32,332 nucleotides of DNA from IMG/VR virus record IMGVR_UViG_3300044647_002064, positions 1 through 32,332 of that record, one strand, 5' to 3'. The number at the start of each line of letters is the position of its first letter. Position 1 is the first letter of the stretch. The notes under the pieces are model-generated. The model had not been told where the DNA came from, did not search any database, and saw nothing but the letters and a program-made list of their open reading frames with translations. Made by a program: the position numbers and the translations under genes. Below are positions 12,397 to 31,700 of the stretch, one piece after another. This DNA comes from a virus.

Positions 12397-13635
12397 TTAT
12401 TTTTTGTATTTGTAGGAAGTATCTATTGGTCTTTTACCATATCTTTTTTCCATAAGTTTCTGGTGTAAGTCCCAATCTAATATAGATTCATTTGTTTGTT
12501 CTTTTTCATCAGGAAGGAGAGAATATATTTTTGATATTTTTTTCATTAAATTTGTTGAGACATAATTAAATCTTTCACACTCGTCTTTAAAAAAGTCCAT
12601 TTCTCTATCTTTATATTTTGAAACGTGATTAATAAACTTTCTTCTAACCTTTTCTTTTTCTTCTCTTGGTGGATTAATTTGGCCACCAAATAAGTTTACC
12701 CCCATAAACCCACTAAACATTTGTGCCATTTTTTCAGAATGTGTATAAAAGAAATTATCAAATGTATCCACTTTAGCATTAACTAAGTTAATATAAATAA
12801 GTTCCAAAACTGATTTAATTTTTTCTTCATCATTCATAGTATCAGGATCTCCACCCGCATGACTAATTAATCCATCAATACTATCCATTTGTTCGTATAA
12901 CTGCTCCATTAAATAATCATATGAAAATTCACGTATTTTTTTAAGTTCAGTAAAAACCTCATCATTTACAATAAAATCATAAAAATCTTGTTTTTTAATT
13001 CCTTTTTGGATCATTCTTGAGGCAACCTCAGTTGGTCTTACAATGTTTTCTGATTGTTGTATAAAATAACTATACCTCATAAATTCATTAATCACAGGTA
13101 TTCCAAATCTTAAAGTTCCTGAAGAATAAACGTTATAATCAGCAGTTCCACCAATAAGTTCGTGTTCTTGTTTTTGTCTATGAAATCTATGCATTATTTC
13201 GTGTGACATTACAGATACTGTTTGTTCTTTATCTTTGGTAAATTCTTCATATAACTCTTCAGGTTCCCAACCTTCGGGAGATATAAAGTTTATATGTAAT
13301 TCTATTGTTTGACTTTTAGCGTTAACTTGCAACATTACACCTTCGTCAAAATTAAATTCATTACCAACACCCATAGATGCAATCACCGGATATTCATATG
13401 GGAAATCTTCAACTTCTTCAACAGAAACCGCAACATTTATTTCAGTGAACGTTACATCAGATATTACTAAGTCACTATAAATTTTAAAACTATAATTTTC
13501 TTCGGTGGTATCTATTGTTTTTAATTCATCAGATACTAAATTGTATAATTCTTCACCCGCTTGTAATATTCCTTCAGGAACACCAACAGCTTCCTGTAAT
13601 ATTTTAAATTGATTTTCTGTTAAAATGATTTTCAT
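12397..13635 (-). CDS. Putative tagged zinc metalloprotease (412 aa)
   Basis: The zinc site HEIMH (145-149) fits HExxH and sits in SVMSHEIMHRFHR. A plausible third ligand is Glu 203 in RPTEVASR, 54 residues on. The first ten residues, MKIILTENQF, are the tag shared with proteins at 18217 and 18644 and include the (L/I)-x-E site L-T-E. The C-terminal part is long, helical and charged, ending TNESILDWDLHQKLMEKRYG. The likely role is peptidase activity on a host or virion target; injection with the DNA is a hypothesis based on the tag. TATTTATT lies 3 nt before the start. No signal peptide. Confidence 0.75.
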   Translation of the reverse strand: MKIILTENQFKILQEAVGVPEGILQAGEELYNLVSDELKTIDTTEENYSFKIYSDLVISDVTFTEINVAVSVEEVEDFPYEYPVIASMGVGNEFNFDEGVMLQVNAKSQTIELHINFISPEGWEPEELYEEFTKDKEQTVSVMSHEIMHRFHRQKQEHELIGGTADYNVYSSGTLRFGIPVINEFMRYSYFIQQSENIVRPTEVASRMIQKGIKKQDFYDFIVNDEVFTELKKIREFSYDYLMEQLYEQMDSIDGLISHAGGDPDTMNDEEKIKSVLELIYINLVNAKVDTFDNFFYTHSEKMAQMFSGFMGVNLFGGQINPPREEKEKVRRKFINHVSKYKDREMDFFKDECERFNYVSTNLMKKISKIYSLLPDEKEQTNESILDWDLHQKLMEKRYGKRPIDTSYKYKK

Positions 13636-13638
13636 ATT

Positions 13639-13646
13639 AATAAATA
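13639..13646 (-). promoter_or_regulatory. TATTTATT motif, 3 nt before start at 13635
   Basis: The minus strand reads TATTTATT-AAT-ATG, directly downstream of a 10-bp hairpin at the end of the phosphoesterase gene. It serves the tagged metalloprotease, consistent with a late class. Confidence 0.5.
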
Positions 13647-13648
13647 TA

Positions 13649-13678
13649 TTGGTGTTGTAATTTAGCCTACAACACCAA
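13649..13678 (-). terminator. Hairpin at end of metallophosphoesterase gene
   Basis: Perfect 10-bp inverted repeat TTGGTGTTGT / ACAACACCAA with a 10-nt loop that contains the stop codon region of the 13662-14315 gene. It is followed on the minus strand by an AT-rich stretch without a clean T run, so termination is possible but not certain. Confidence 0.5.
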
Positions 13679-14342: not shown

Positions 14343-14933
14343 ATGAAAAAGTTTTTACTACTATTATTTTTTATTTTACCTTTTATTTTATTATCTCAAA
14401 AAGTATTAAGAGATAATGTCACAATTAAAACCGACATATTTCAAGTCGTTTACTCCGAAAAATTAGAACAACCACTTTCAGTAACATACACCGTTCAGTG
14501 TCCTTCAGGTTCCGCATCAAGATCAGGTATGGATTTTTTTACTTGTGATTCTGTTAAGACATCAGACAGTAAAGATTATGAAAGTAATGTTTGGGACAAG
14601 GGTCATATGGCCCCTGCGGCAGATTTTAATTGTGATAAAATAATGTTAAAGAAAACCTTTAGTTATTTAAATTGTACACTACAACATCAGGACCTAAACC
14701 GAACTACTTGGAGATTGTTGGAGGTATATGAAAGAGAATTGGCTTTAAAATATACGGTGACAGTAACCGTTACTTGTATGTTTTCTAAAACTTCAGTTGT
14801 TTTAAAATCTGGTGCAACTGTACCTGATGGGTATTATAAAAAAATCACATATAACGGTAAAACTGAAACGTATTACTTTAAAAATGAAAAACCTTCAACA
14901 ACTGACTACAAAAAGTTTATTGTTAAATCTTAA
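14343..14933 (+). CDS. Secreted DNA/RNA non-specific endonuclease (196 aa)
   Basis: The N-terminal signal peptide is MKKFLLLLFFILPFILLSQ. The NUC-family active-site motif follows as DKGHMAPAADF (about residues 81-91, His as general base; the family usually reads DRGH). LNCTLQHQDLNRTTWRLLE is the family's metal-Asn block (N in LNRTTW, ending in W-x-x-L-E). At 196 residues it is compact. It would cut DNA and RNA after export to the periplasm or outside. A typical neighbour in host genomes is none; here it is an isolated plus-strand gene, convergent with and overlapping the kinase gene by 11 nt. Confidence 0.88.
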   Translation: MKKFLLLLFFILPFILLSQKVLRDNVTIKTDIFQVVYSEKLEQPLSVTYTVQCPSGSASRSGMDFFTCDSVKTSDSKDYESNVWDKGHMAPAADFNCDKIMLKKTFSYLNCTLQHQDLNRTTWRLLEVYERELALKYTVTVTVTCMFSKTSVVLKSGATVPDGYYKKITYNGKTETYYFKNEKPSTTDYKKFIVKS

Positions 14934-15327
14934 TCTCAAACCTGTCTTTCATCATTTGCACCTTATCTTCAGGGACATTGTGAATACTTTTATTACCATG
15001 TCTGTTTTCAACAATAATTGAAAATGTTTTATACCCATACTTTTTTGCAAGTTCAAAGTATGGTTCCATTTCCCACTCTTGTGTAAAGGTGTTTGAAACG
15101 GCAATCTTATCAACATTAACTTGAGTTCCGTCGGTTTTCATCCAAGCTTCGGTTTGTGTTCTACAATATTCGTGAGCCAATTTTATTTTACTACCATCAA
15201 AATTGTAATTACCATTACCATCAACAAAGTATTGATCAGCCTCAATGTGTATTCCACCTAATGTTTTAGCAAAAGTTGATTTTCCTGCCGAGGGTAGCCC
15301 TCTCACCAAATATAATATTTTTTCCAT
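14923..15327 (-). CDS. P-loop kinase (PNK/zeta-like AAA_33 type, 134 aa)
   Basis: Walker A is GLPSAGKST (10-18). IHIEADQYF matches the Asp-containing second motif of polynucleotide-kinase-like and NEDD4BP2-like P-loop kinases. NTFTQEWEMEPYFELAKKYGY and a C-terminal N-V-P-E segment (IHNVPEDKV) are typical of this family. It probably phosphorylates a nucleotide or a nucleic-acid 5' end and could supply 5'-phosphates for the RNA ligase. TATATTTG lies 4 nt before the ATG, fixing the start. Confidence 0.85.
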   Translation of the reverse strand: MEKILYLVRGLPSAGKSTFAKTLGGIHIEADQYFVDGNGNYNFDGSKIKLAHEYCRTQTEAWMKTDGTQVNVDKIAVSNTFTQEWEMEPYFELAKKYGYKTFSIIVENRHGNKSIHNVPEDKVQMMKDRFEIKI

Positions 15328-15331
15328 ATAG

Positions 15332-15339
15332 CAAATATA
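15332..15339 (-). promoter_or_regulatory. TAnnTTTG promoter box, 4 nt before start at 15327
   Basis: TATATTTG-CTAT-ATG on the minus strand, 4-nt spacing to the start. No TTTG at -33. It lies directly after the stop of the repeat-protein gene. Confidence 0.6.
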
Positions 15340-15348
15340 ATAATTTTT

Positions 15349-16755
15349 TTATGATTTAACACCATTTTGAATAATATCTTTAACTTCATCTTGATGATAC
15401 CATTCACTTCCTGACATTATAACTTTAACACCATTTTCAATAGCATAATTAATATCTTCAGTAATTATAGCGTTAGTAACCATATGATCTTTTTGTTGAT
15501 AACTTTCAGCCATCTTATGTTTAACTTCTTTAACACCATTTTGTATAACATCATCAACTTTACGATTTATACGGAGATGTCTAGCACCTGTGTCTTTTAC
15601 TCCATTTTGAATAACATCGTCAACTTTACGATAATTCCACCCTAAAATATCTTTAACCCCATTTTCTATAACATCTTCATCAATGATATTATCATCCATG
15701 TCAAAGTGTCCAATATCTTTCACCCCATTTTTAATTGTCTTATCAACATTCGGTGGTTGCTGACCACCAAATTCAATCGCATTTTTAATTTCCCTACTTC
15801 TTGGGAAAACCCAAGCTGAGATTTCTTTTACCCCATTTTGAATAGTTTCGTCAACCGCACCCAATGGATACCACATTCGTGTTTGGGTGTCCTTTACCCC
15901 ATTTTGAATTGTGTCTTCAACATTTATATCTCCCTCAAAATAATACGGATAACTTTCTTTCACTCCATTTTTAAGGGTATCTTCAAAATCAGGATTTAAG
16001 GATTCAAGTACGTCCTTGACATATTTTACCCCATTTTGAAGGGTGTCTTCAACGATATCCTCCAACGGACTTGAATCACCGTCAATTTCCTTTACCCCAT
16101 TTTGAATGGCATTTTCAACATTGGTTGTCATAGAAAATGGATTATCTATAATTTCTTTCACTCCATTTTGAATGGCGTCTTCAACAAACATCCTTCCTTT
16201 TATAAAATCAAAGAAGGTGTGCTTTACCCCATTTTGAATTGTGTTTTCAACACCCATGTCATTCATAAAATCATCGGGTTCAGTATTTTTCACTCCATTT
16301 TGAATGGTGTCTTCAACTAAGTGTTGTACCAACTCATTTTGATATGAGGTGTCCTTTACCCCATTTTGAATGGTATCTTCAACTCGCCTGTAGTAAATCA
16401 TATTTTTTTGTTTGGCGTCCTTCACCCCATTTTGAACTACGTTTTCAACTATTGAATACGGTACATTAGATGTGTCAGTAACATGTTCAATGTCTTTTTC
16501 TAAAAATCTTGATTCAAACCATTCTTTAATTATATCTTTTGACTCAACACAATCAATGCTAAGTAATTTTAATTCAGAATGAAATAGATTATAATTAAAC
16601 CAAAGAGTTTTTGTGTTTGTAAATTCAATAACCCATCTTTTTTCTTCTGTGAATATTAACCACATTGATGATTTTGTTACATACTTATCGGCACCTTCAA
16701 TCATGTCATCAAACATGCCATATATCAATTTTCTTATTTTAGGTGTTATTTCCAT
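15349..16755 (-). CDS. 22-residue repeat protein (468 aa)
   Basis: Residues 1-95 form an N-terminal domain (RKLIYGMFDD, WLIFTEEKRWVIEF, LWFNYNLF, IIKEWFESRF). From residue 103 to the end run about 17 units of a conserved 12-residue block, V-E-D-T-I-Q-N-G-V-K-D-T or close variants, each followed by about 10 highly variable residues. Ten consecutive units keep an exact 66-nt spacing. The unit near 336-350 (IKNAIEFGG) is degenerate. Codon third positions vary within the conserved block, so selection acts on protein. To my recollection other tailed phages carry similar LW-x-N-Y proteins with repeat arrays; function unknown. A promoter lies at 16760-16791. Confidence 0.85.
   Translation of the reverse strand: MEITPKIRKLIYGMFDDMIEGADKYVTKSSMWLIFTEEKRWVIEFTNTKTLWFNYNLFHSELKLLSIDCVESKDIIKEWFESRFLEKDIEHVTDTSNVPYSIVENVVQNGVKDAKQKNMIYYRRVEDTIQNGVKDTSYQNELVQHLVEDTIQNGVKNTEPDDFMNDMGVENTIQNGVKHTFFDFIKGRMFVEDAIQNGVKEIIDNPFSMTTNVENAIQNGVKEIDGDSSPLEDIVEDTLQNGVKYVKDVLESLNPDFEDTLKNGVKESYPYYFEGDINVEDTIQNGVKDTQTRMWYPLGAVDETIQNGVKEISAWVFPRSREIKNAIEFGGQQPPNVDKTIKNGVKDIGHFDMDDNIIDEDVIENGVKDILGWNYRKVDDVIQNGVKDTGARHLRINRKVDDVIQNGVKEVKHKMAESYQQKDHMVTNAIITEDINYAIENGVKVIMSGSEWYHQDEVKDIIQNGVKS
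15352..16449 (-). repeat. Tandem 66-bp in-frame repeat array
   Basis: About 17 copies of a ~30-nt core (plus strand, like TTTACCCCATTTTGAATGG followed by TGTCTTCAAC) separated by ~36 nt of unrelated sequence. Core positions step by exactly 66 nt from about 15833 to 16427, then 57-105 nt towards the C-terminus. It mimics a CRISPR array but is coding. Confidence 0.95.
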
Positions 16756-16763
16756 AATGGAAA
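16749..16763. promoter_or_regulatory. Palindrome over start and promoter of repeat gene
   Basis: TTTCCAT-A-ATGGAAA is a perfect 7+7 palindrome that covers the ATG at 16755 and the downstream half of the -7 box. It is also in the divergent gap before the plus-strand cassette, so it could be an operator controlling one or both. Confidence 0.4.
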
Positions 16764-16791
16764 GGTATGATTATATTTTTAATTAATCAAA
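16760..16791 (-). promoter_or_regulatory. Bacteroidetes-type promoter for gene starting 16755
   Basis: TTTG (16791-16788), 20 nt, then TACCTTTC (16767-16760), 4 nt, then ATG on the minus strand. The last base deviates from TAnnTTTG, possibly because it is part of the palindrome at 16749-16763. Confidence 0.6.
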
Positions 16792-16808
16792 CTATTTATA
16801 ATATTATC

Positions 16809-17255
16809 ATGGAAAGACTAATTAGAAAAATATTAAAAGAGGAAAGTTTAAAACAATCTTTAAAAGATCAAATTAAAGAATTTGGTTGGAAAGATACTGC
16901 GGAATTGGTTAATGGATCCGAGAATCTAAAAAAATTATCCGGAATTAAAACACCGATAGATTTTCTTAACTTATTTAATGATCTTGATGTTGTTCAGAGT
17001 GAGGAACGACCAATATTGACTTTATTTCGATATAAAAAACATAATAATCTAATGGTTTACGATCGAAAAAAAGAGATTGTTTACCTAGACTATGATAAAA
17101 TTTGGTTAGTTTTACGAGATGATTTCGGTCTTAACCTTACTGATACACAACAACTTATAAAGGAATGGTTGGGTGAGGTCTACAATTTAAGTGGAATCAC
17201 AACAACAACCAATTTGGATATACAACTTCCGAGTTGGATGAGACCTATAATTTAA
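16809..17255 (+). CDS. Tag-B cassette protein 1 (148 aa)
   Basis: Starts MERLIRKILKEESLKQSLKD. The first ~11 residues are the tag shared with the next two genes; I-L-K-E fits an (L/I)-x-E prohead-protease site. The body has EFGWKDTAELV, DFLNLFNDLDVVQS, TLFRYKKHNNLMVYDRK and WLGEVYNLSGI. It is homologous to the next gene along almost its whole length. A 14-codon upstream extension is possible but would precede the conserved tag. No known domain. It begins the plus-strand cassette; TATTTATA lies 8 nt before the ATG. Confidence 0.8.
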   Translation: MERLIRKILKEESLKQSLKDQIKEFGWKDTAELVNGSENLKKLSGIKTPIDFLNLFNDLDVVQSEERPILTLFRYKKHNNLMVYDRKKEIVYLDYDKIWLVLRDDFGLNLTDTQQLIKEWLGEVYNLSGITTTTNLDIQLPSWMRPII

Positions 17256-17259
17256 AAAT

Positions 17260-17715
17260 ATGAAAGAACTAATTAGAAAAATATTAAAAGAGGAAAGTTT
17301 AAAGCAAACTTTAAAAGATCGTGTTAAAGAAGATGGATGGGAATATGTTGCAGAATTGGTCGGTGATGGGGAAATTTTAGCAAGATTAGGATTTAATAAT
17401 GATCCGGTTGAGTTCCTTAACTTATTTAACGACCTTGATATTGTTCAGTCAAAAGAAAAACCATATTTGACTTTATTCAGATATGAAAAAGGAAATAATA
17501 TGATGATTTACGATAGAAAAAATGAATATGTTTATATAAATTATGATGTTATTTGGTCATTTTTGGGAGATGTTTTTGGTTTAAAATATGTGGAAATACA
17601 AGAACTTACACAGGAGTGGTTGAGTGAGACATACAATTTAAGGGGAATCACAACAAAATTGCTGGTAAATTACTTTGATTATCAGTTGAGTGAGGCATAC
17701 AATTTAAAAATATGA
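17260..17715 (+). CDS. Tag-B cassette protein 2, paralog of protein 1 (151 aa)
   Basis: Starts MKELIRKILKEESLKQTLKD, nearly identical to the previous gene's first 20 residues, and follows it throughout (EFLNLFNDLDIVQS, LTLFRYEKGNNMMIYDRK, IWSFLGDVFGLKY). Its end is partly duplicated: LSETYNLRG recurs as LSEAYNLKI just before the stop. It is a recent tandem duplication. It overlaps the next gene's ATG by 4 nt (ATGA). Function unknown. Confidence 0.85.
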   Translation: MKELIRKILKEESLKQTLKDRVKEDGWEYVAELVGDGEILARLGFNNDPVEFLNLFNDLDIVQSKEKPYLTLFRYEKGNNMMIYDRKNEYVYINYDVIWSFLGDVFGLKYVEIQELTQEWLSETYNLRGITTKLLVNYFDYQLSEAYNLKI

Positions 17716-18197
17716 AACAACTAATAAAAAAAATATTAAAAGAGGTGGAAGAAGAAAAAGAACTAACAAATCTTAAAGAAACCTTAATGGGTTATATTTC
17801 AACCGTTGGTGTTTTAGAAACAATAAAAATGGTTGGTGATATTGATATTTTTAATGAAATAGTTCCCGATTACTTTTCTAAAAAAAGTCACAAAATAGAT
17901 TTAATTAATGAACTTGTTAATGCTAATGATCCTGATGGTTATATATATTTTTATGAACTAATTAATTCGGACATTTCATTAGGTCAAGTTGATTCTTATG
18001 AAAACGGTGATGGTCACACATTTGAACAATATATACTTTCAGTTGGTGATGGTTCTGTTCTGATTAGTATTTATGAGTATGATGAAGAAGGTGATATGTA
18101 TGACGAATCTGTGGATAGTTATCGTGTTTCTCTTGGAAAATTACCAAATAATGAATTAAATAAAGTTTTTGAAGTATTGGTGGATTATTATTTATGA
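17712..18197 (+). CDS. Tag-B cassette protein 3 (161 aa)
   Basis: The tag MKQLIKKILKEVEEEKEL is like the two preceding genes, but the body is unrelated: a helical part (LKETLMGYISTVGVLETIKMVGD) and an acidic C-terminal beta-rich part (ILSVGDGSVLISIYEYDEEGD; ending ELNKVFEVLVDYYL). This is evidence that tag and body are separate modules. Function unknown. It overlaps the tag-remnant mini-ORF at 18194. Confidence 0.8.
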   Translation: MKQLIKKILKEVEEEKELTNLKETLMGYISTVGVLETIKMVGDIDIFNEIVPDYFSKKSHKIDLINELVNANDPDGYIYFYELINSDISLGQVDSYENGDGHTFEQYILSVGDGSVLISIYEYDEEGDMYDESVDSYRVSLGKLPNNELNKVFEVLVDYYL

Positions 18198-18220
18198 AAA
18201 ACTTAATTAGAAAAATATGA
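18194..18220 (+). other. Tag-B remnant mini-ORF (MKNLIRKI, stop)
   Basis: An ATG overlapping the stop of the previous gene opens MKNLIRKI and then stops at the TGA that overlaps the next gene's ATG. Its DNA (TTAATTAGAAAAATAT) matches the tag-B coding sequence at 16817 and 17268, then switches to a tag-A gene. It looks like the scar of a body/tag swap and could also couple translation to the next gene. Confidence 0.6.
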
Positions 18221-18639
18221 AAATAATATTAACAGAAGAACAATACGATAAATTAATATCTTCTCTAACGGGAGAACCTAAAAGCAATCCGTCTTTATTT
18301 TCTAAATTTAAAAATTGGGTATCGGGTAATAGTGACAACGAGATTGGTAAAATGTTATTGAAGTCAATTGAGTCTGGAAATTATGAATTTGATGGGATTG
18401 ATATTTTATATACTTTATATACTATAAAATTTTCAATAAATAATTTCCCGTTTAAAATAACAAAAGATAATGGTAGCACAAAAGATAATATATTTTCTTT
18501 ATATATGCCATATGTTAAGGAAGAATTAAAAATAAATAAAAACTTATTGAAACATATTTTTGATTTAATGGCTAAAAAACATATGGACCTTAATGATTAT
18601 TTTAACATGTATTTAAATGATATGATTAATTCACTATGA
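18217..18639 (+). CDS. Tag-A cassette protein 4 (140 aa)
   Basis: Starts MKIILTEEQYDKLISSL. The first 29 nt of coding sequence are identical to those of the next gene. L-T-E fits an (L/I)-x-E protease site. The body is Lys/Asn/Ile-rich with FSKFKNWVSGNSDNEIG, ITKDNGSTKDNIFSLYMPYV and a helical end (HIFDLMAKKHMDLNDYFNMY). No domain recognised. Within the plus-strand cassette, 4 nt before the ADP-ribosyltransferase candidate. Function unknown. Confidence 0.75.
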   Translation: MKIILTEEQYDKLISSLTGEPKSNPSLFSKFKNWVSGNSDNEIGKMLLKSIESGNYEFDGIDILYTLYTIKFSINNFPFKITKDNGSTKDNIFSLYMPYVKEELKINKNLLKHIFDLMAKKHMDLNDYFNMYLNDMINSL

Positions 18640-18643
18640 AAAT

Positions 18644-20221
18644 ATGAAAATAATATTAACAGAAGAACAATATAAAAGTTTAATAAATGAGAATTTATTT
18701 AAGGACACCTTAAAAGACCTTAAAATAAATACCGGAATTTTATTCACATTTGGTACAGGAATGGCCGCATTTTTAGGTCCTGTTGAAAGATTACTTACAG
18801 GATCGGGGTTTTCATTTAATTCTACAGAAATATCACTTTTAATAATTTCAGCAATTGCCAATTTAATCAATGACACAAATAAAGATAAGTTATTAGAAAA
18901 GTTAAAAGAATTAAATTTAACTGACGCTCTTGGTGGTGTTGAAAATTTAATTAAAAAATCAACGGATATAATAAGAGAAGTTGTTAAAGGTGTTTTAGGT
19001 GTTTCATATTCATTAACTGAAATACTTGGGTTTGCATTTTTATTAAACCCTGTTATGAAGATCATTGGTTCAATAATAAATGATAGAAATATCACCACTG
19101 ATAATTTACAAGTATTAGTAAGTGGTGTTGTATTAGGAGGTATTGTATTTTTTATTAGAAACCTATTAAAAAAATCAAAAGATAATTTAGGTGAAAGTTT
19201 TGTAACATTAAAAGAAGATATTGAACCATCATCAAAGGCAGTTAAAAACATTTGTGATTCAAAAAAGTTCTGTAAAGCACAAGGAAAAATAACATTCGGC
19301 CAATTAAGAGAATTGGTTGAAAATGCAAAAACAAATAGATTATTTTTACACATTGGTGAAGGCGGATATAAGGCAACTCTTAGATTACTACCTTGGTTTT
19401 TTCCTCAGTTAGCAATTGCTGGTTTTACAGGTTCTTTATTAAGAGCGTTCAACAAAGTTTTTAGACCAACATTAGAAGAAACAACAGGATATAAAACATG
19501 GTGGGGTAAAACCATTATGAAGATATTCAATCTTGTTGAGGGTGAGTTAGGCACAACTGATCCTTTATCTAAAATATTTTTTATATCTGATGGTTTAATG
19601 ACCATGTTAGATGACAAACTAAAAGTTAAATTTGCAAGATACATTGCAGATATTGCATCAGAAAAACCTGATGATGAAGAAGTTCCTGAGTTTTTTGTTG
19701 AAAATGAATTAAGATATTGGTTAAATGAGAAGTTCTTATTGGATCCACCTCTATCACCAAAAAACCCAACAATAGAAGATAAAGAAACTTTAGATGAAAG
19801 TTATATTAGATTAAGTGAGGACAATACTGATAACTTACTTGGTTACTTATATGAGATGGGTTTTGATAATGATGACGCATTATATCAACTAAACGACATC
19901 ACAGATTTTTATGATAATTTACCTGAGACGCTAACACTTTATAGAATGGTATTTGCCGGTAGTAAAGATGAAATAGATACACAATATCCAGGTTCACATT
20001 ACGCAACAAACAAAAATGATTTATTAGATAGTCACTACACTTCTTTAAGAGATTCAAGTTATGGTGATAATTGTTATGTGATAAAAGTTAAAGCACAAAA
20101 ACAACTAATAGATAGTTACGAATCAATAAAGAATAACATTCTTTATCCAAACGAACAAGAGATCACATTAAAGAATAAAGGGTTTGGTGTTGATGTAATA
20201 GAAATAATGCAGGTCAATTAA
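18644..20221 (+). CDS. Tag-A membrane protein with C-terminal ADP-ribosyltransferase-like domain (525 aa)
   Basis: Tag MKIILTEEQYKSLI. Hydrophobic helices lie at about 31-50, 62-77, 125-147, 155-173 and possibly 252-268. A central helical region carries a Cys pair (NICDSKKFCKAQ). The last ~100 residues fit an R-S-E ADP-ribosyltransferase: TLYRMVFAG (Arg 434), YPGSHYATNK (Ser 451), and YPNEQEITL with Glu 504 and Glu 506 as an E-x-E pair, then KGFGVDVIEI. T4 Alt is a precedent: an injected ART cut after I-T-E near its N-terminus by the prohead protease. The role, NAD-dependent modification of a host target after injection, is inference. Convergent with the MPPED gene. Confidence 0.65.
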   Translation: MKIILTEEQYKSLINENLFKDTLKDLKINTGILFTFGTGMAAFLGPVERLLTGSGFSFNSTEISLLIISAIANLINDTNKDKLLEKLKELNLTDALGGVENLIKKSTDIIREVVKGVLGVSYSLTEILGFAFLLNPVMKIIGSIINDRNITTDNLQVLVSGVVLGGIVFFIRNLLKKSKDNLGESFVTLKEDIEPSSKAVKNICDSKKFCKAQGKITFGQLRELVENAKTNRLFLHIGEGGYKATLRLLPWFFPQLAIAGFTGSLLRAFNKVFRPTLEETTGYKTWWGKTIMKIFNLVEGELGTTDPLSKIFFISDGLMTMLDDKLKVKFARYIADIASEKPDDEEVPEFFVENELRYWLNEKFLLDPPLSPKNPTIEDKETLDESYIRLSEDNTDNLLGYLYEMGFDNDDALYQLNDITDFYDNLPETLTLYRMVFAGSKDEIDTQYPGSHYATNKNDLLDSHYTSLRDSSYGDNCYVIKVKAQKQLIDSYESIKNNILYPNEQEITLKNKGFGVDVIEIMQVN

Positions 20222-20231
20222 CCTGCATTAT
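20204..20231. terminator. Perfect inverted repeat at convergent gene ends
   Basis: ATAATGCAGGT, a 6-nt loop, then ACCTGCATTAT: an 11-bp perfect stem over the overlapping stop codons of 18644-20221 (plus) and 20218-20922 (minus). It is placed to act as a bidirectional terminator, though neither side has a strong T run. Confidence 0.55.
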
Positions 20232-20922
20232 CAACAAATTCTAATTCGTTTGTTTTTGGATCCCAATCAACAGTTAATGGTTTGTTTCGGAATTCATATC
20301 TTTCATTTAGAACCGCCGCGTTTATAAAATGGGTGTCACCATCAAAAACATAACCATAACCACTATGGATGTGCCCACACAAGTGAATTTTTGGTTTGAT
20401 TTCTTGTATTTTAGATAACAAATCTTCACAACCAACATTTTTTCCATCATATGGAACAAAATCTAATTTACCAAAAGCGGGTCCGTGAGTAACCAAGATA
20501 TCAACGTCTTTTGGTATCAAGTTCCACTTCTCCATTAGTTTTTCACCACGAGGTAAATTGAATGCCCAATTATGGAATTCAGGTTGCCATGGACTACCCC
20601 ATATTTTAACCATGTTATCTATATCTTCACCAACACCCATCCAATCATCTTGTAGATAATCTATGGTTTTATAACCAGTTAATAACCCTTTAAGTTTTTC
20701 GGCGTCGTCTTGAAACCCAAAGTCGTGATTACCACATATAAAGACTTTGGAGTCGTAATTATCTATTTTGTCATACCATTTGAAAAAGTTTTCAAGTTCA
20801 GTGATATATCCACGACTAGTAAGGTCTCCCGAGTGGAGCAATATATCACCGCCAGGTAAAAAACCATTAAGTTTTTCATGTTTGTTATGTGTATCTGATA
20901 TAAGTGTCAACCTTTTTTTCAT
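20218..20922 (-). CDS. MPPED-type metallophosphoesterase (234 aa)
   Basis: The motif set of the MPPED1/class III phosphodiesterase group is complete: SDTHNKH, ILLHSGDLTSRGY, FICGNHDFGF, IWGSPWQPEF, ILVTHGPAFGKLD and LCGHIHSGYG. It probably hydrolyses cyclic nucleotides or other phosphodiesters, so a role against host nucleotide signalling is possible but unproven. The start MKKRLTLISDTH is preferred over an ATG 25 codons upstream, because the family begins near this motif and the extension would overlap the HNH gene. Confidence 0.9.
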   Translation of the reverse strand: MKKRLTLISDTHNKHEKLNGFLPGGDILLHSGDLTSRGYITELENFFKWYDKIDNYDSKVFICGNHDFGFQDDAEKLKGLLTGYKTIDYLQDDWMGVGEDIDNMVKIWGSPWQPEFHNWAFNLPRGEKLMEKWNLIPKDVDILVTHGPAFGKLDFVPYDGKNVGCEDLLSKIQEIKPKIHLCGHIHSGYGYVFDGDTHFINAAVLNERYEFRNKPLTVDWDPKTNELEFVDNAG

Positions 20923-20929
20923 TTTATAT

Positions 20930-21568
20930 TTATTTTTTATATTTACAGTTATCACCATGCCATTTACTGAAATTACCTTTTCCTGAAAGGACATCACAGT
21001 GTGGGCATTTTATTTTCATTTTACTTGGGTTATTTGTTTCGCTAAAAAGTGCCGGATGTTTATCTACAACTTCTTTTTTTTTCATAGGGTTTTTATCCCC
21101 ATTTATTCTTCCTTTACTTGCTAACCCAATATTTCTTTTATGTTCTTCAGTAAATTTTTTTCCACTATTTACCCCAACTTTACCTAATTTTGATTTACGT
21201 ATCTTTTCTTTATGCTCTTGCGTAAATGGTTTTCTTTTAACTCCCGTCAATACTTCGCTATGTGCCTGTGCCGCCTCCATTTTAATTCTTTCAAAAATCT
21301 TTCCAGATTTTATAATTTTTCTTTCTTGATCACTACTTTTTATTGACATCATTCTAACCGCCAATTTTAATTTTGGATTATTTTGGTAAATCTCTACAAG
21401 TAATAGGTGTATTAACCAATGTTCTTTTGCCGTTAATTTAACTAAATTTTCTTTTTTATTATTTCCACCTAAACATTTTGGGATTATGTGGTGATTCTCT
21501 CCGTAACCAATTAAAACTCTATTCTTTGCTCTGGAAATAATACTGTCGTGTATTTTTTTGTAATTCAT
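20930..21568 (-). CDS. HNH homing endonuclease (212 aa)
   Basis: Starting at MNYKKIHDSIISRAKN, the HNH core is NHHIIPKCLGG (His 26-27), ENLVKLTAKEH (Asn 41, His 50) and a His near 54. NUMOD3-type repeats follow (FTQEHKEKIRKSKLGK; FTEEHKRNIGLASKGR). The C-terminal CPHCDVLSGKGNFSKWHGD-N-C is the zinc finger typical of T4-like HNH endonucleases. The core resembles the nuclease at 8759-9481. An in-frame ATG 23 codons upstream is possible but gives an unconserved hydrophobic leader. It is a free-standing mobile element between a phosphoesterase gene and a coil protein gene. Confidence 0.9.
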   Translation of the reverse strand: MNYKKIHDSIISRAKNRVLIGYGENHHIIPKCLGGNNKKENLVKLTAKEHWLIHLLLVEIYQNNPKLKLAVRMMSIKSSDQERKIIKSGKIFERIKMEAAQAHSEVLTGVKRKPFTQEHKEKIRKSKLGKVGVNSGKKFTEEHKRNIGLASKGRINGDKNPMKKKEVVDKHPALFSETNNPSKMKIKCPHCDVLSGKGNFSKWHGDNCKYKK

Positions 21569-21582
21569 AATGATATCTTTAT

Positions 21583-21590
21583 TATAAATA
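21583..21590 (-). promoter_or_regulatory. TATTTATA motif upstream of HNH gene
   Basis: TATTTATA on the minus strand, 14 nt before the ATG at 21568. It lies in the 5' arm region of a possible TGATAT/ATATCA hairpin. It resembles the TATTTATA before the GIY-YIG gene; weak alone. Confidence 0.3.
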
Positions 21591-21626
21591 TCACGAGCAT
21601 GTAAAAACAAAAAAAATTTAGTAATA

Positions 21627-21634
21627 CAAAGATA
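21627..21634 (-). promoter_or_regulatory. TAnnTTTG promoter box upstream of HNH gene
   Basis: TATCTTTG on the minus strand, 58 nt before the start at 21568, with TATT following as at other sites. No good TTTG at 20 nt (only ATTG at 22 nt). It is the only TAnnTTTG box here with a long leader. Confidence 0.4.
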
Positions 21635-21645
21635 CAAATTTTATT

Positions 21646-21966
21646 TTAATATTTATCAATTTGTTTTTTAATTTTTTCTAATAATTCTTCTGATATATTT
21701 TCAGTTTCAGTTATTTCTTCCAATAACTCTTTTATCTCTTTTTTGGATCTTTCTTTTGATTTGTATCTGGTTTTTAATTCCACTTGATATAAATGAAAAG
21801 AAACCTCATCAACGTTTCTAAGTTTAATCAAATACTTTTCCACTCTTTGGTCAAGTTTTCTACTTCTACTTACATCAAATACTGTGGGTAACGCTTTAAA
21901 TAGTTCATCTAATCTACCTTTGAGGTATTGTATTTCTCCAAATTTTGAAATGTCTTTATCTGTCAT
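21646..21966 (-). CDS. Hypothetical coiled-coil protein (106 aa)
   Basis: Charged and helical: YLKGRLDELFKALPTVFDVSR, KYLIKLRNVDEVSFHLYQVELK, and a Glu/Lys coil at the end (KEIKELLEEITETENISEEL). No catalytic motif. It starts 1 nt after the neighbouring stop in the same operon. Function unknown. Confidence 0.7.
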   Translation of the reverse strand: MTDKDISKFGEIQYLKGRLDELFKALPTVFDVSRSRKLDQRVEKYLIKLRNVDEVSFHLYQVELKTRYKSKERSKKEIKELLEEITETENISEELLEKIKKQIDKY

Positions 21967-21967
21967 G

Positions 21968-22204
21968 TTAACTTATTATTTTAATTTCACTCTCTGTTTC
22001 TATTACTACTCTTGCTCCACAAGATAATAATGGTTTTTTATCTCCACTACCACAATACTTTATTGTACTCGGACCGAGTATTTCCACTTCATTACAGTAC
22101 GTATTGGTCTTACCTTCCTTAATTGTTATAACAGGAAGATCGGTGTCCTTTGTTTTATTGGACCTAACGTTATGTTGATTAACGTGAATACGTTTTATAC
22201 CCAT
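21968..22204 (-). CDS. Conserved phage protein, MGIKRIHVNQH type (78 aa)
   Basis: The sequence MGIKRIHVNQHNVRSN, DLPVITIK, VEILGPSTIKY, PLLSCGARVVIETESEI matches a short conserved protein I know from many phages of Bacteroidetes and other bacteria. It has no assigned function. It is a compact beta-rich protein and sits between a coil protein and a 27-residue ORF that overlaps its start by 10 nt. Confidence 0.85.
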   Translation of the reverse strand: MGIKRIHVNQHNVRSNKTKDTDLPVITIKEGKTNTYCNEVEILGPSTIKYCGSGDKKPLLSCGARVVIETESEIKIIS

Positions 22205-22278
22205 CCTCTACCCGATTGTGACATCGCGTTTATTCTTTGTTGTTCTAACCAACCTAAAAATTTAAATAGTTTTTTCAT
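22195..22278 (-). CDS. Small ORF (27 aa)
   Basis: MKKLFKFLGWLEQQ followed by RINAMSQSGRGWV and stop. It fills the gap between two genes exactly and overlaps the next start by 10 nt. The pattern (basic hydrophobic helix, QQxRI, then SGRGW) looks like a conserved small phage peptide. I cannot be sure it is expressed. Confidence 0.45.
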   Translation of the reverse strand: MKKLFKFLGWLEQQRINAMSQSGRGWV

Positions 22279-22282
22279 AACT

Positions 22283-22813
22283 TTAATCTATTACATCTGC
22301 TAAATATTGTCCAGGTCCGAGTGTTACTTTTTCACAACCTTCTTGACCATCCATCTCATCCATCCAATTATCCCAATTTTTATTTAATAAATCAACAAAT
22401 GCGTCGTTATTACCTCTGTCTTTATATCTTTGAATATATTCATCTTTAATGTCTCTTTCGGGATAAACTAACACATAAGGTATTCCTTTTTTAAGTAATG
22501 CGTCTCTTACGTCTTTATGTGATGATACAAGGATCTTATCTACCTTTGGATCTTGAATGTTTCTTTCAATATGGTCAATGTAGTTTGCAGGAAAGTTCTT
22601 TTTATCAAACTTTGAACTATCACTATCCAATACGTTTTTATCTGTGGTGTTGAAATAAGTTGTTTTTCCTACACCAGGGAATGCTGAATATACTTTTGTT
22701 TTCATATCTATTTTAATTGTTTTTTCCAAGTGTTCTTGAACAAATTTATCAATTTCAGAATCACCGTGTTTGTTTAACCAGTCCGAGATTATGTTGTTTT
22801 TTTTAATAATCAT
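22283..22813 (-). CDS. P-loop nucleotide-kinase-like protein with N-terminal module (176 aa)
   Basis: Walker A is AFPGVGKTTY (about 44-53). VLDSDSSKFDK and HIERNIQDPKVDKILVSSHKDVR follow the adenylate-kinase-like layout seen in phage kinases (VLVYPERD is a late strand). The first ~30 residues (NNIISDWLNKHGDSEIDKFVQEHLE) match a short module I recall as a stand-alone phage peptide, so this seems to be a fusion. The substrate is unknown. It overlaps the PGDYG gene by 4 nt. Confidence 0.8.
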   Translation of the reverse strand: MIIKKNNIISDWLNKHGDSEIDKFVQEHLEKTIKIDMKTKVYSAFPGVGKTTYFNTTDKNVLDSDSSKFDKKNFPANYIDHIERNIQDPKVDKILVSSHKDVRDALLKKGIPYVLVYPERDIKDEYIQRYKDRGNNDAFVDLLNKNWDNWMDEMDGQEGCEKVTLGPGQYLADVID

Positions 22814-30752: not shown

Positions 30753-31700
30753 TTATTTAATGTTTAAAAATGTTCCTGATCCACCCGCAACTGTTGTAGG
30801 AAGTTTTCCGTCCCAACTTTGTGCTTTCAAATATTCAACATAAAGAGGTGTAATTTCTTTTTGTTTTAACTTCATTGCCAAGGCCAAAGCTTGTGCGTCA
30901 ATTATAACTTTTGCCGAATCACCACGAGCGATTGCGATTTTTTCTTGAGCTTCAGCTTCTGCAACTAATTTACGTTGTGTCGCAGCTTGTGCTTCTTGGA
31001 CCGCTTTTGTTTTACCTTCAATTGCTTGTTGTAGAGATTTTGGTGGTATAATATTAGTTCTTAACTGTGATACCTCAAACCATTTAGATAATCTTTTATT
31101 ACACTCCGCAACAATTGCCGCTTCAAATTCTTCTCTTTTATTAAAGATTGCATCCACTTCCCATTTATTAGCCACGTCATTTACTGAAGAGACAATTGCG
31201 TTCATTAACCATCCTTGTTCAATTTGTTTTATATCCAATCTCAAGTTCTCAAACATATTACCAATTGCTGTTGGTTTAAGTGAGTAGTTGAATGACGGTT
31301 TAATTGTTGCTGCGAACCCACCTTTTGTAATCACAGTTTGATCCTTGTATTCAATATGTTGTTGGAATGTAGGAAACTCTAACATCTGTTCTGTCCAGGT
31401 GTTATACATTACCCAACCTGTTTTGTATTCATAACTTGACACACCTCTTTTGTCTCCAGTCAAATTAACTTTGATACCAACGTGTCCCGCATCAACTCTT
31501 TCAAGTGCAAAAGGTTGGATACTACTAATTATAATACCTAAGACAAAAATACCAATTGGTTTGAGTATCCACATTGTATTAAACATCTCTTTACTATCAC
31601 CCCATCTGTCTGTTCCTGTTACATACATTCGGTCTCTTGTTGTAAATGTCACAAATCCCGCAATTACCAATCCTAAAATAAAAATTAAAGTACTAATCAT
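30753..31700 (-). CDS. SPFH/band 7 (prohibitin-like) membrane protein (315 aa)
   Basis: Two N-terminal hydrophobic segments (STLIFILGLVIAGFVTF and LKPIGIFVLGIIISS). The SPFH domain then runs from about 68 (VDAGHVGIKVNL) through YKDQTVITKGGF and LRTNIIPPKSL. A C-terminal Ala/Glu/Gln-rich coil (VQEAQAATQRKLVAEAEAQE; KVIIDAQALALAMK) is typical of prohibitin and stomatin oligomers. It would form ring-like scaffolds on the host membrane, perhaps to control a protease or exclude other phages. Flanked by small membrane proteins. Confidence 0.9.
   Translation of the reverse strand: MISTLIFILGLVIAGFVTFTTRDRMYVTGTDRWGDSKEMFNTMWILKPIGIFVLGIIISSIQPFALERVDAGHVGIKVNLTGDKRGVSSYEYKTGWVMYNTWTEQMLEFPTFQQHIEYKDQTVITKGGFAATIKPSFNYSLKPTAIGNMFENLRLDIKQIEQGWLMNAIVSSVNDVANKWEVDAIFNKREEFEAAIVAECNKRLSKWFEVSQLRTNIIPPKSLQQAIEGKTKAVQEAQAATQRKLVAEAEAQEKIAIARGDSAKVIIDAQALALAMKLKQKEITPLYVEYLKAQSWDGKLPTTVAGGSGTFLNIK

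Follow-up and report, generated by a model that had tools for sequence, protein, structure and literature searches.

Among the proteins injected together with phage DNA, the internal proteins and Alt of phage T4 are the best known, and T4 IPI* blocks a host restriction enzyme. The T4 internal proteins are packaged and cut by the prohead protease gp21. A conserved capsid-targeting sequence (CTS) carried by otherwise unrelated injected proteins is established for the T-even phages (PMC3012670), and T4 gp21 cuts behind L/I-X-E, with Alt being trimmed at both ends (PMC9026906). Here, we describe a locus in the virus record IMGVR_UViG_3300044647_002064, a 32-kb sequence with a guanine-plus-cytosine content of 30%, whose whole length of 32,332 nucleotides (nt) is referred to as the window. 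The locus is a cassette at 16809-20221, in which five consecutive plus-strand genes sit between a minus-strand gene for a repeat protein and a minus-strand gene for a metallophosphoesterase and encode proteins that begin with a short peptide tag. Based on comparison with related phages, the cassette is probably a hypervariable cargo locus, the tagged proteins of which would be packaged in the head, cut by gp21, and injected.

The window is a fragment of a T4-related phage. In the 257-kb relative G003, which is largely collinear with the window over its 100-140 kb region, 38 of the 65 open reading frames (ORFs) of the window are matched (median identity 71%), and 24 of the 65 are matched in the 291-kb relative G008. 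The first three cassette genes encode proteins of 148, 151, and 161 amino acids (aa), which open with MERLIRKILKE followed by E (16809-17255; the start is an internal ATG of the ORF beginning at 16767), MKELIRKILKE followed by E (17260-17715), and MKQLIKKILKE followed by V (17712-18197; homologue in L001 and G013), respectively. The fourth protein (140 aa, 18217-18639; homologue in L090) opens with MKIILTE followed by EQ, and the fifth (525 aa, 18644-20221) joins a tag to a membrane module, a middle module, and an ADP-ribosyltransferase (ART)-fold module. These ORF calls agree with a preliminary description of the locus, which had proposed two tags on five genes with unrelated bodies and is supported in outline and corrected in detail. 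The bodies number four unrelated ones rather than five, because the first two are paralogues; a Pfam search of all five gave no match. Furthermore, a sixth tagged gene had been overlooked on the minus strand at 12397-13635, which encodes a 412-aa protein with the tag MKIILTENQ, a HEIMH zinc-peptidase motif, and tagged homologues in G002, G013, G003, and G008, and whose product gave no match in a Pfam search either. Both tags do occur, but they are not separate kinds, given that relatives carry a fused full motif (RIITLTENDLTRIVKRVLNE, MKKIIRLTESDLTRIVKRVIKE). Together they make up a single N-terminal helix, (I)xLTESxLxxLIRKILKE, with MKIILTESQ as the first half and MKxLIRKILKE as the second.

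In comparison with T4 IPI-IPIII and their CTS, the cassette likewise combines a short N-terminal peptide ending in (L/I)xE, unrelated small proteins, a polymorphic locus, and gp21/gp22/gp23-type heads. However, the peptide sequence is unrelated to MKTYQEFIAE, only the (L/I)xE ending and the amphipathic helix being common to both. The cassette phages also differ in having two half-motifs and a fused full form, in placing tags at C-termini and internally, and in encoding tens of tagged proteins per genome as opposed to the few of T4; moreover, the cassette proteins are known here from their genes alone. The tag may work like the T4 CTS, whereas common descent of the two is not shown by their sequences. 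The earlier view that this set of genes has not been described in any system is correct for the set itself, but not for the principle, which is established in T-even phages (PMC3012670). In the ejection proteins of phiKZ and SPN3US, which involve a gp175-type protease (PMC9026906), many head-protein propeptides are also removed behind a short x-E motif, although this motif is S/A-x-E rather than L/I-x-E, and the phages and proteins are unrelated. Peptides that are more T4-CTS-like (MKNIIKYNHFLILE, MNTIKKYDEFLIQE) are found on homologues of the middle module (~31-35% identity) in megaphages; in three uncultured phages of 634-735 kb (L175, L176, and L177), these homologues and their neighbours open with MKNIIKYNHFLILE, MNTIKKYDEFLIQE, and MIKDYFTYIKES, and the sequences suggest a second tag dialect in megaphages.

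The distribution of the tag was evaluated by position-specific scoring based on the LIRKILKE helix. Among 1796 ORFs, 107 matches were N-terminal, 11 C-terminal, and 19 internal, and after de-duplication across eight genomes the tag was present at 82 of 1379 N-termini versus 7 of 7189 internal 30-mers (60-fold, p=2.5e-57). A DNA pattern for the full tag matched viral contigs at least 120 times, compared with no match for a random degenerate pattern of similar length; two of the control DNA patterns gave no matches, and a third supplied control contigs. By their bodies, the 122 tagged proteins group into 80 clusters. Tagged bodies outside the slot described below belong, among others, to the M23, lysozyme, GH19, cell-wall hydrolase, and AAT families. 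Homologous bodies can bear different tags, as observed for G003:90526 (MNLKDSIKNILRE) and G008:170225 (MKNLIRSILNE), and a second such swap was found between G003:2727 and G008:264155. A signal peptide was also considered as the identity of the tag and was rejected, the tags being charged and amphipathic. A tblastn search of cultured phages with a 22-aa tag and two tagged head-region proteins returned no match, and a literature search on the tag strings returned no relevant paper.

The cassette occupies a slot whose content varies among relatives. The flanks are the same in L001, L003, L017, L090, and L093, where two to five tagged genes lie between them in differing combinations, and L002 has the same slot with an added homing-type ORF. 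The last gene of the slot encodes either the 525-aa protein or, in L017 and G013, the C-terminal domain alone behind MKELIRKILKEE. In L002, the gene directly before that for the ART protein encodes a tagged sigma-70 family factor (L002:2706-3245; MKIIITEEQ; Sigma70_r4_2 E=1.7e-16, r2 7e-13), which is a candidate for a virion-packaged sigma factor. The left edge of the slot is the minus-strand gene of a 22-residue-repeat protein (15349-16755), which is not cargo, and the right edge is the minus-strand metallophosphoesterase gene (20218-20997). The repeat of the former (66 nt) encodes xVEDTIQNGVKDT plus ~12 variable residues in 16 copies; homologues in L001, L002, L003, L017, and L090 have 4 to 23 copies, with blocks reshuffled among close relatives. 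A clustered regularly interspaced short palindromic repeat (CRISPR) array was rejected as an explanation of the 66-nt repeats, as they are codons of a conserved protein. Elsewhere, in runs of ~ten genes at G003:83916-91473 (L048) and G002:59969-68668 (L066/L067), different bodies follow a 5′ end that is nearly the same from gene to gene (MNLQESIRRILREE), and one fusion within such a run (G003:87190-88128) bears the tag twice.

Two explanations of the tag do without any targeting of proteins, and both draw on the MNLQESIRRILREE (NLQ) arrays, which are near-identical at the DNA level across the tag, suggesting that they spread recently. In the first, the tag-encoding stretch would serve as a translation or expression signal at the start of late mRNAs, for instance for bS21-modified ribosomes, and the tag would be no protein label; these phages encode S21, which has been proposed to favour late phage transcripts (PMC9723584). 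In the second, the common 5′ ends are recombination seams for gene shuffling, in line with a variable slot that holds two to five genes between fixed flanks. In the three other tag classes, however, 28-39% of the identical residues use synonymous codons, indicating that the peptide is what selection keeps, and these classes have diverged in DNA while being conserved as peptides. An mRNA signal at the 5′ end could not act from the C-terminus, where the gene downstream of gp23 carries a tag in addition to its N-terminal one (G008:262699, G006:69129), or from inside the fusion at G003:87190, and we therefore regard the first explanation as very unlikely. Recombination alone would not keep the LxE or the amphipathic pattern, and tags under protein-level constraint in single-copy, non-clustered genes have for the most part been observed, leaving the second explanation with hardly any probability.

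The reading of the tags as head-targeting peptides is connected to the protease and the head genes by several observations. In T4, [LI]xE occurs within the first 10 residues of ipII/ipIII (MKTYQEFIAE-A), gp22 (MLKEQLIAE-A), gp24 (MAKINELLRE-S), and alt (MELITE-L). As the preliminary description noted for the window tags, the (L/I)-x-E triplet is found near the N-terminus of 119 of the 122 tagged proteins, compared with 435 of 1258 others, although the former figure is partly built into the tag definition. A tag at each end, as in the product of the gene downstream of gp23, parallels T4 Alt, from which both ends are trimmed. The gp21 prohead protease (Pfam S77, E ~1e-23) and the gp23 capsid protein (E ~1e-64) are encoded by G003, G006, and G008, and gp21 together with a gp23-type capsid was found in the collinear G003 and four further relatives. 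A search for a gp21-like protease had been proposed; S77 is absent from the 32-kb fragment and present in the collinear G003. In a survey of 40 contigs of at least 40 kb chosen solely by full-tag DNA, S77 was detected in 26, including all 10 contigs of at least 180 kb, versus 3 of 26 control contigs (Fisher p=1.4e-5; p=0.04 for contigs of at least 100 kb), while the HK97-type S78 protease was detected in none of the 40. In relatives, the genes for gp21, the scaffold, gp23, the tail tube, and the baseplate are preceded by a motif in gene orientation, ATATTTAT/TATTTATA, which was not seen upstream of the recombinase, helicase, primase, and ThyA genes. This late-promoter-like motif is present at 55 of 122 tagged versus 234 of 1257 other genes (p=2.5e-10). 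In the window, it occurs as TATTTATA on the plus strand at 16793-16800, 16 nt ahead of the start codon of the first cassette gene, and as ATATTTAT on the minus strand at 13640-13647, immediately before the gene for the tagged zinc peptidase. Another motif, TATnTTTG, was observed upstream of a different gene set in G008; it resembles the Bacteroidetes -7 element, and the genes behind it possibly have early promoters.

The tag could instead dock to another phage structure, such as the tail, the tape-measure interior, a replication compartment, or the membrane. Some tagged genes are located in tail modules (G008:34847), and the peptidoglycan-hydrolase bodies might function at the tail tip or during lysis. 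On the other hand, none of the recognisable tail proteins (sheath, tube, and baseplate) is tagged, the tags end in a prohead-protease motif, tagged proteins are encoded beside gp23 and TerL, and the long tag-bearing contigs have gp21. We consider docking outside the head core to be improbable, with a small but real chance.

The 525-aa protein illustrates how the tagged bodies may be combined, since each of its three modules is a separate tagged gene in relatives. Residues 1-188 (18644-19207) comprise the tag, MKIILTE followed by EQ, and a hydrophobic membrane module, which occurs separately at G003:65296-65916, G006:25395-26012, and G008:207357-207977. The four to five membrane helices of the preliminary description come close to what is found, i.e., at least three hydrophobic segments in the N-terminal half (~57-75, 127-145, and 157-175) and one at 248-266 in the middle module. 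The first junction, LKE at residues 189-191 (19208-19216), is a predicted prohead-protease site; the residues preceding the middle module are LKE, ISE, LNE, or INE in 10 of 11 aligned rows, though the upstream sequence differs. The middle module (residues 192-382; 19217-19789) stands alone at G008:162431-163426, directly behind MKNIIRDILKEE, and its AlphaFold model is poor and helical, with a predicted local distance difference test score (pLDDT) of 60. The second junction, LDE at residues 383-385 (19790-19798; LNE in L003), is likewise a predicted site, and we infer from these motifs that the prohead protease cuts the protein at both junctions. Multi-domain polyvalent proteins, which include ART and metallopeptidase domains, were predicted to be packaged and injected, and are likely processed (Iyer et al. 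2017, PMC5512222). The protein encoded at G003:65921-67747 resembles them in joining the middle module to cupin-like and HExxH peptidase-like parts. In contrast to polyvalent proteins, the cassette modules occur singly as well, and where they are joined, recognisable tags and prohead-protease motifs lie between them. As for the two or more biochemically disparate domains of polyvalent proteins, a predicted activity is available for one of the three modules of the 525-aa protein, the ART module. The fusion of the middle module to a cupin-like segment was also observed in L016 and L010, and the HExxH peptidase-like domain also in L016; in G003, this domain is preceded by an internal tag-like helix, ELRNIIRTIVRD.

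The C-terminal domain (residues 384-525; 19793-20218) is encoded alone at G013:36448-36906, directly behind MKELIRKILKEE. At least 105 relatives were found in viral contigs, mostly as stand-alone proteins of 136-159 aa, many of which start with MKLLPILSE, MKLLNILKE, MKLLQLLTE, or MREIIKKVLKE, and 30 of 42 distinct relatives have [LI]xE in the first 16 residues. Pfam and Protein Data Bank (PDB) sequence searches of the domain gave no match, and its fold was assigned from the structure model (AlphaFold pLDDT 88). A Foldseek search of the PDB returned ParT as the best match (E=1.8e-3, template modelling (TM) score ~0.44), along with IcmQ, PltA, and other ARTs. As proposed in the preliminary description, the domain likely has an ART fold, the model being confident and the best fold matches belonging mostly to the ART superfamily. 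Of the residues named there, Arg434 and the E-x-E at 504-506 are invariant, while Ser451 is not. Arg434, G-x-H-[YF] around His452, and Glu504/Glu506 are kept in 47 of 47 distinct homologues (two with NNVLYPHENE judged by eye), whereas residue 451 varies between S, N, T, A, I, and K. Membership in the R-S-E group of Alt, ModA, and ModB, with its catalytic R, S-T-S, and E-x-E, is therefore not supported, and ADP-ribosyltransferase activity is plausible from the model. IcmQ is an NAD-binding protein of the ART fold that is not known to transfer ADP-ribose, and the domain might similarly be an ART relative with another NAD-linked or binding role. The empty Pfam and PDB sequence searches, the modest Foldseek E-value, and the replacement of the Ser of R-S-E by His would agree with such a role; the conservation of R, G-x-H-[YF], and E-x-E in all of these diverse homologues and the predominance of ADP-ribosyltransferases (ParT, PltA) among the top solved structures speak for a transferase, so that a non-transferase role appears unlikely, yet deserves some weight. 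Like T4 Alt, the 525-aa protein has an ART-fold domain together with a propeptide, (L/I)TE, at its N-terminus, and it comes from a T4-related phage. Unlike Alt, with which it has no sequence similarity, it has invariant R, H, and ExE and is fused to membrane and middle modules, and its ART domain occurs in relatives as a stand-alone cargo of ~140 aa.

In the proposed mechanism, TATTTATA-type promoters would switch the cassette on late, together with the head genes, and each gene product would consist of an effector body that differs from gene to gene, preceded at the N-terminus by an amphipathic peptide acting as a CTS. The tag helix would bind the growing prohead core, so that the protein becomes enclosed, and gp21 would cut behind (L/I)xE (after LTE, LKE, etc.), as in T4 IPI-IPIII, gp24, and Alt. 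The mature bodies would stay with the DNA and be carried along into the next host. As a fusion of three cargoes, the 525-aa protein would probably be split at the LKE and LDE junctions, leading to delivery of an Alt-like host-modifying enzyme, which may ADP-ribosylate a target there.

Several points weigh against this explanation. A literature search found no virion proteome of a tag-bearing phage, and neither the window nor its closest relatives (<70 kb) showed head genes, which were seen only in the collinear G003 and other large relatives. The [LI]xE motif is weak, being present in 35% of untagged N-termini, and conserved [LI]xE also occurs inside the folded modules, making conservation at the junctions indecisive by itself. 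Some tagged bodies are endolysin-like and need not be head cargo, several homologues of the ART domain are untagged, and none of the Foldseek matches passes E=0.001. Finally, Flavobacterium phage immuto has gp21 and lacks such tags, indicating that the tag is lineage-specific.

The novelty lies in the tag dialect and its scale, in the fusions of several cargoes, and in the list of cargoes. In a broader form, large T4-related Bacteroidota phages would use a readable peptide code, i.e., the full or half LTESxLxxLIRKILKE helix at the N- or C-terminus or between modules, to load a rapidly exchanged head arsenal of tens of proteins per phage, including gp21-cut multi-cargo precursors and an injected sigma factor and ADP-ribosyltransferase; we hold the chances of this to be about even. 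If this code is real, packaged effectors could be listed by sequence alone. Should the tags be targeting sequences, the injected effectors of abundant, hardly cultured phages would become predictable; in the present data these would comprise an enzyme with the ART fold, a zinc peptidase, a sigma factor, hydrolases of peptidoglycan, and numerous proteins without an assigned function. The tags would then also be candidate tools for loading proteins of choice into phage heads, and a fixed label, a variable slot, and cargo fusion with protease sites between the parts suggest a route of phage diversification.

The host group of the phage is probably Bacteroidota. A gene for ribosomal protein S21 (Ribosomal_S21 E=1e-6) lies on the opposite strand between the portal and gp21 genes in G008 (256810-256995), G006 (62292-62477), and G003 (13488-13670). 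Phages encoding bS21 are predicted to infect Bacteroidetes and have S21 on the reverse strand between the portal and prohead protease genes (Chen et al. 2022, PMC9723584); the same arrangement, an AT-rich sequence, and a size of up to ~300 kb unite them with G008, G006, and G003, whereas the passages considered here mention neither N-terminal tags nor cargo cassettes. Among phage records, gp23 comes closest (41-46%) to those of an uncultured 484-kb record, of Microcystis phage Mel-JY01, and of Flavobacterium phage immuto.

Further observations concern genes outside the cassette. The portal ORF of G003 (14400-18422, 1340 aa) is far longer than the portals of relatives and has an intein-like start, CIAGDTKIATTDG, and the TerL ORF of G003 (19487-22492, 1001 aa) is also far longer than in relatives. 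In the window, a non-specific DNA/RNA endonuclease with a signal peptide (Endonuclease_NS, E=2.6e-23) is encoded on the plus strand at 14343-14933, with ATATTTAT just upstream, and an SPFH/Band 7 membrane protein (E=5.5e-22) is encoded on the minus strand at 30753-31700.

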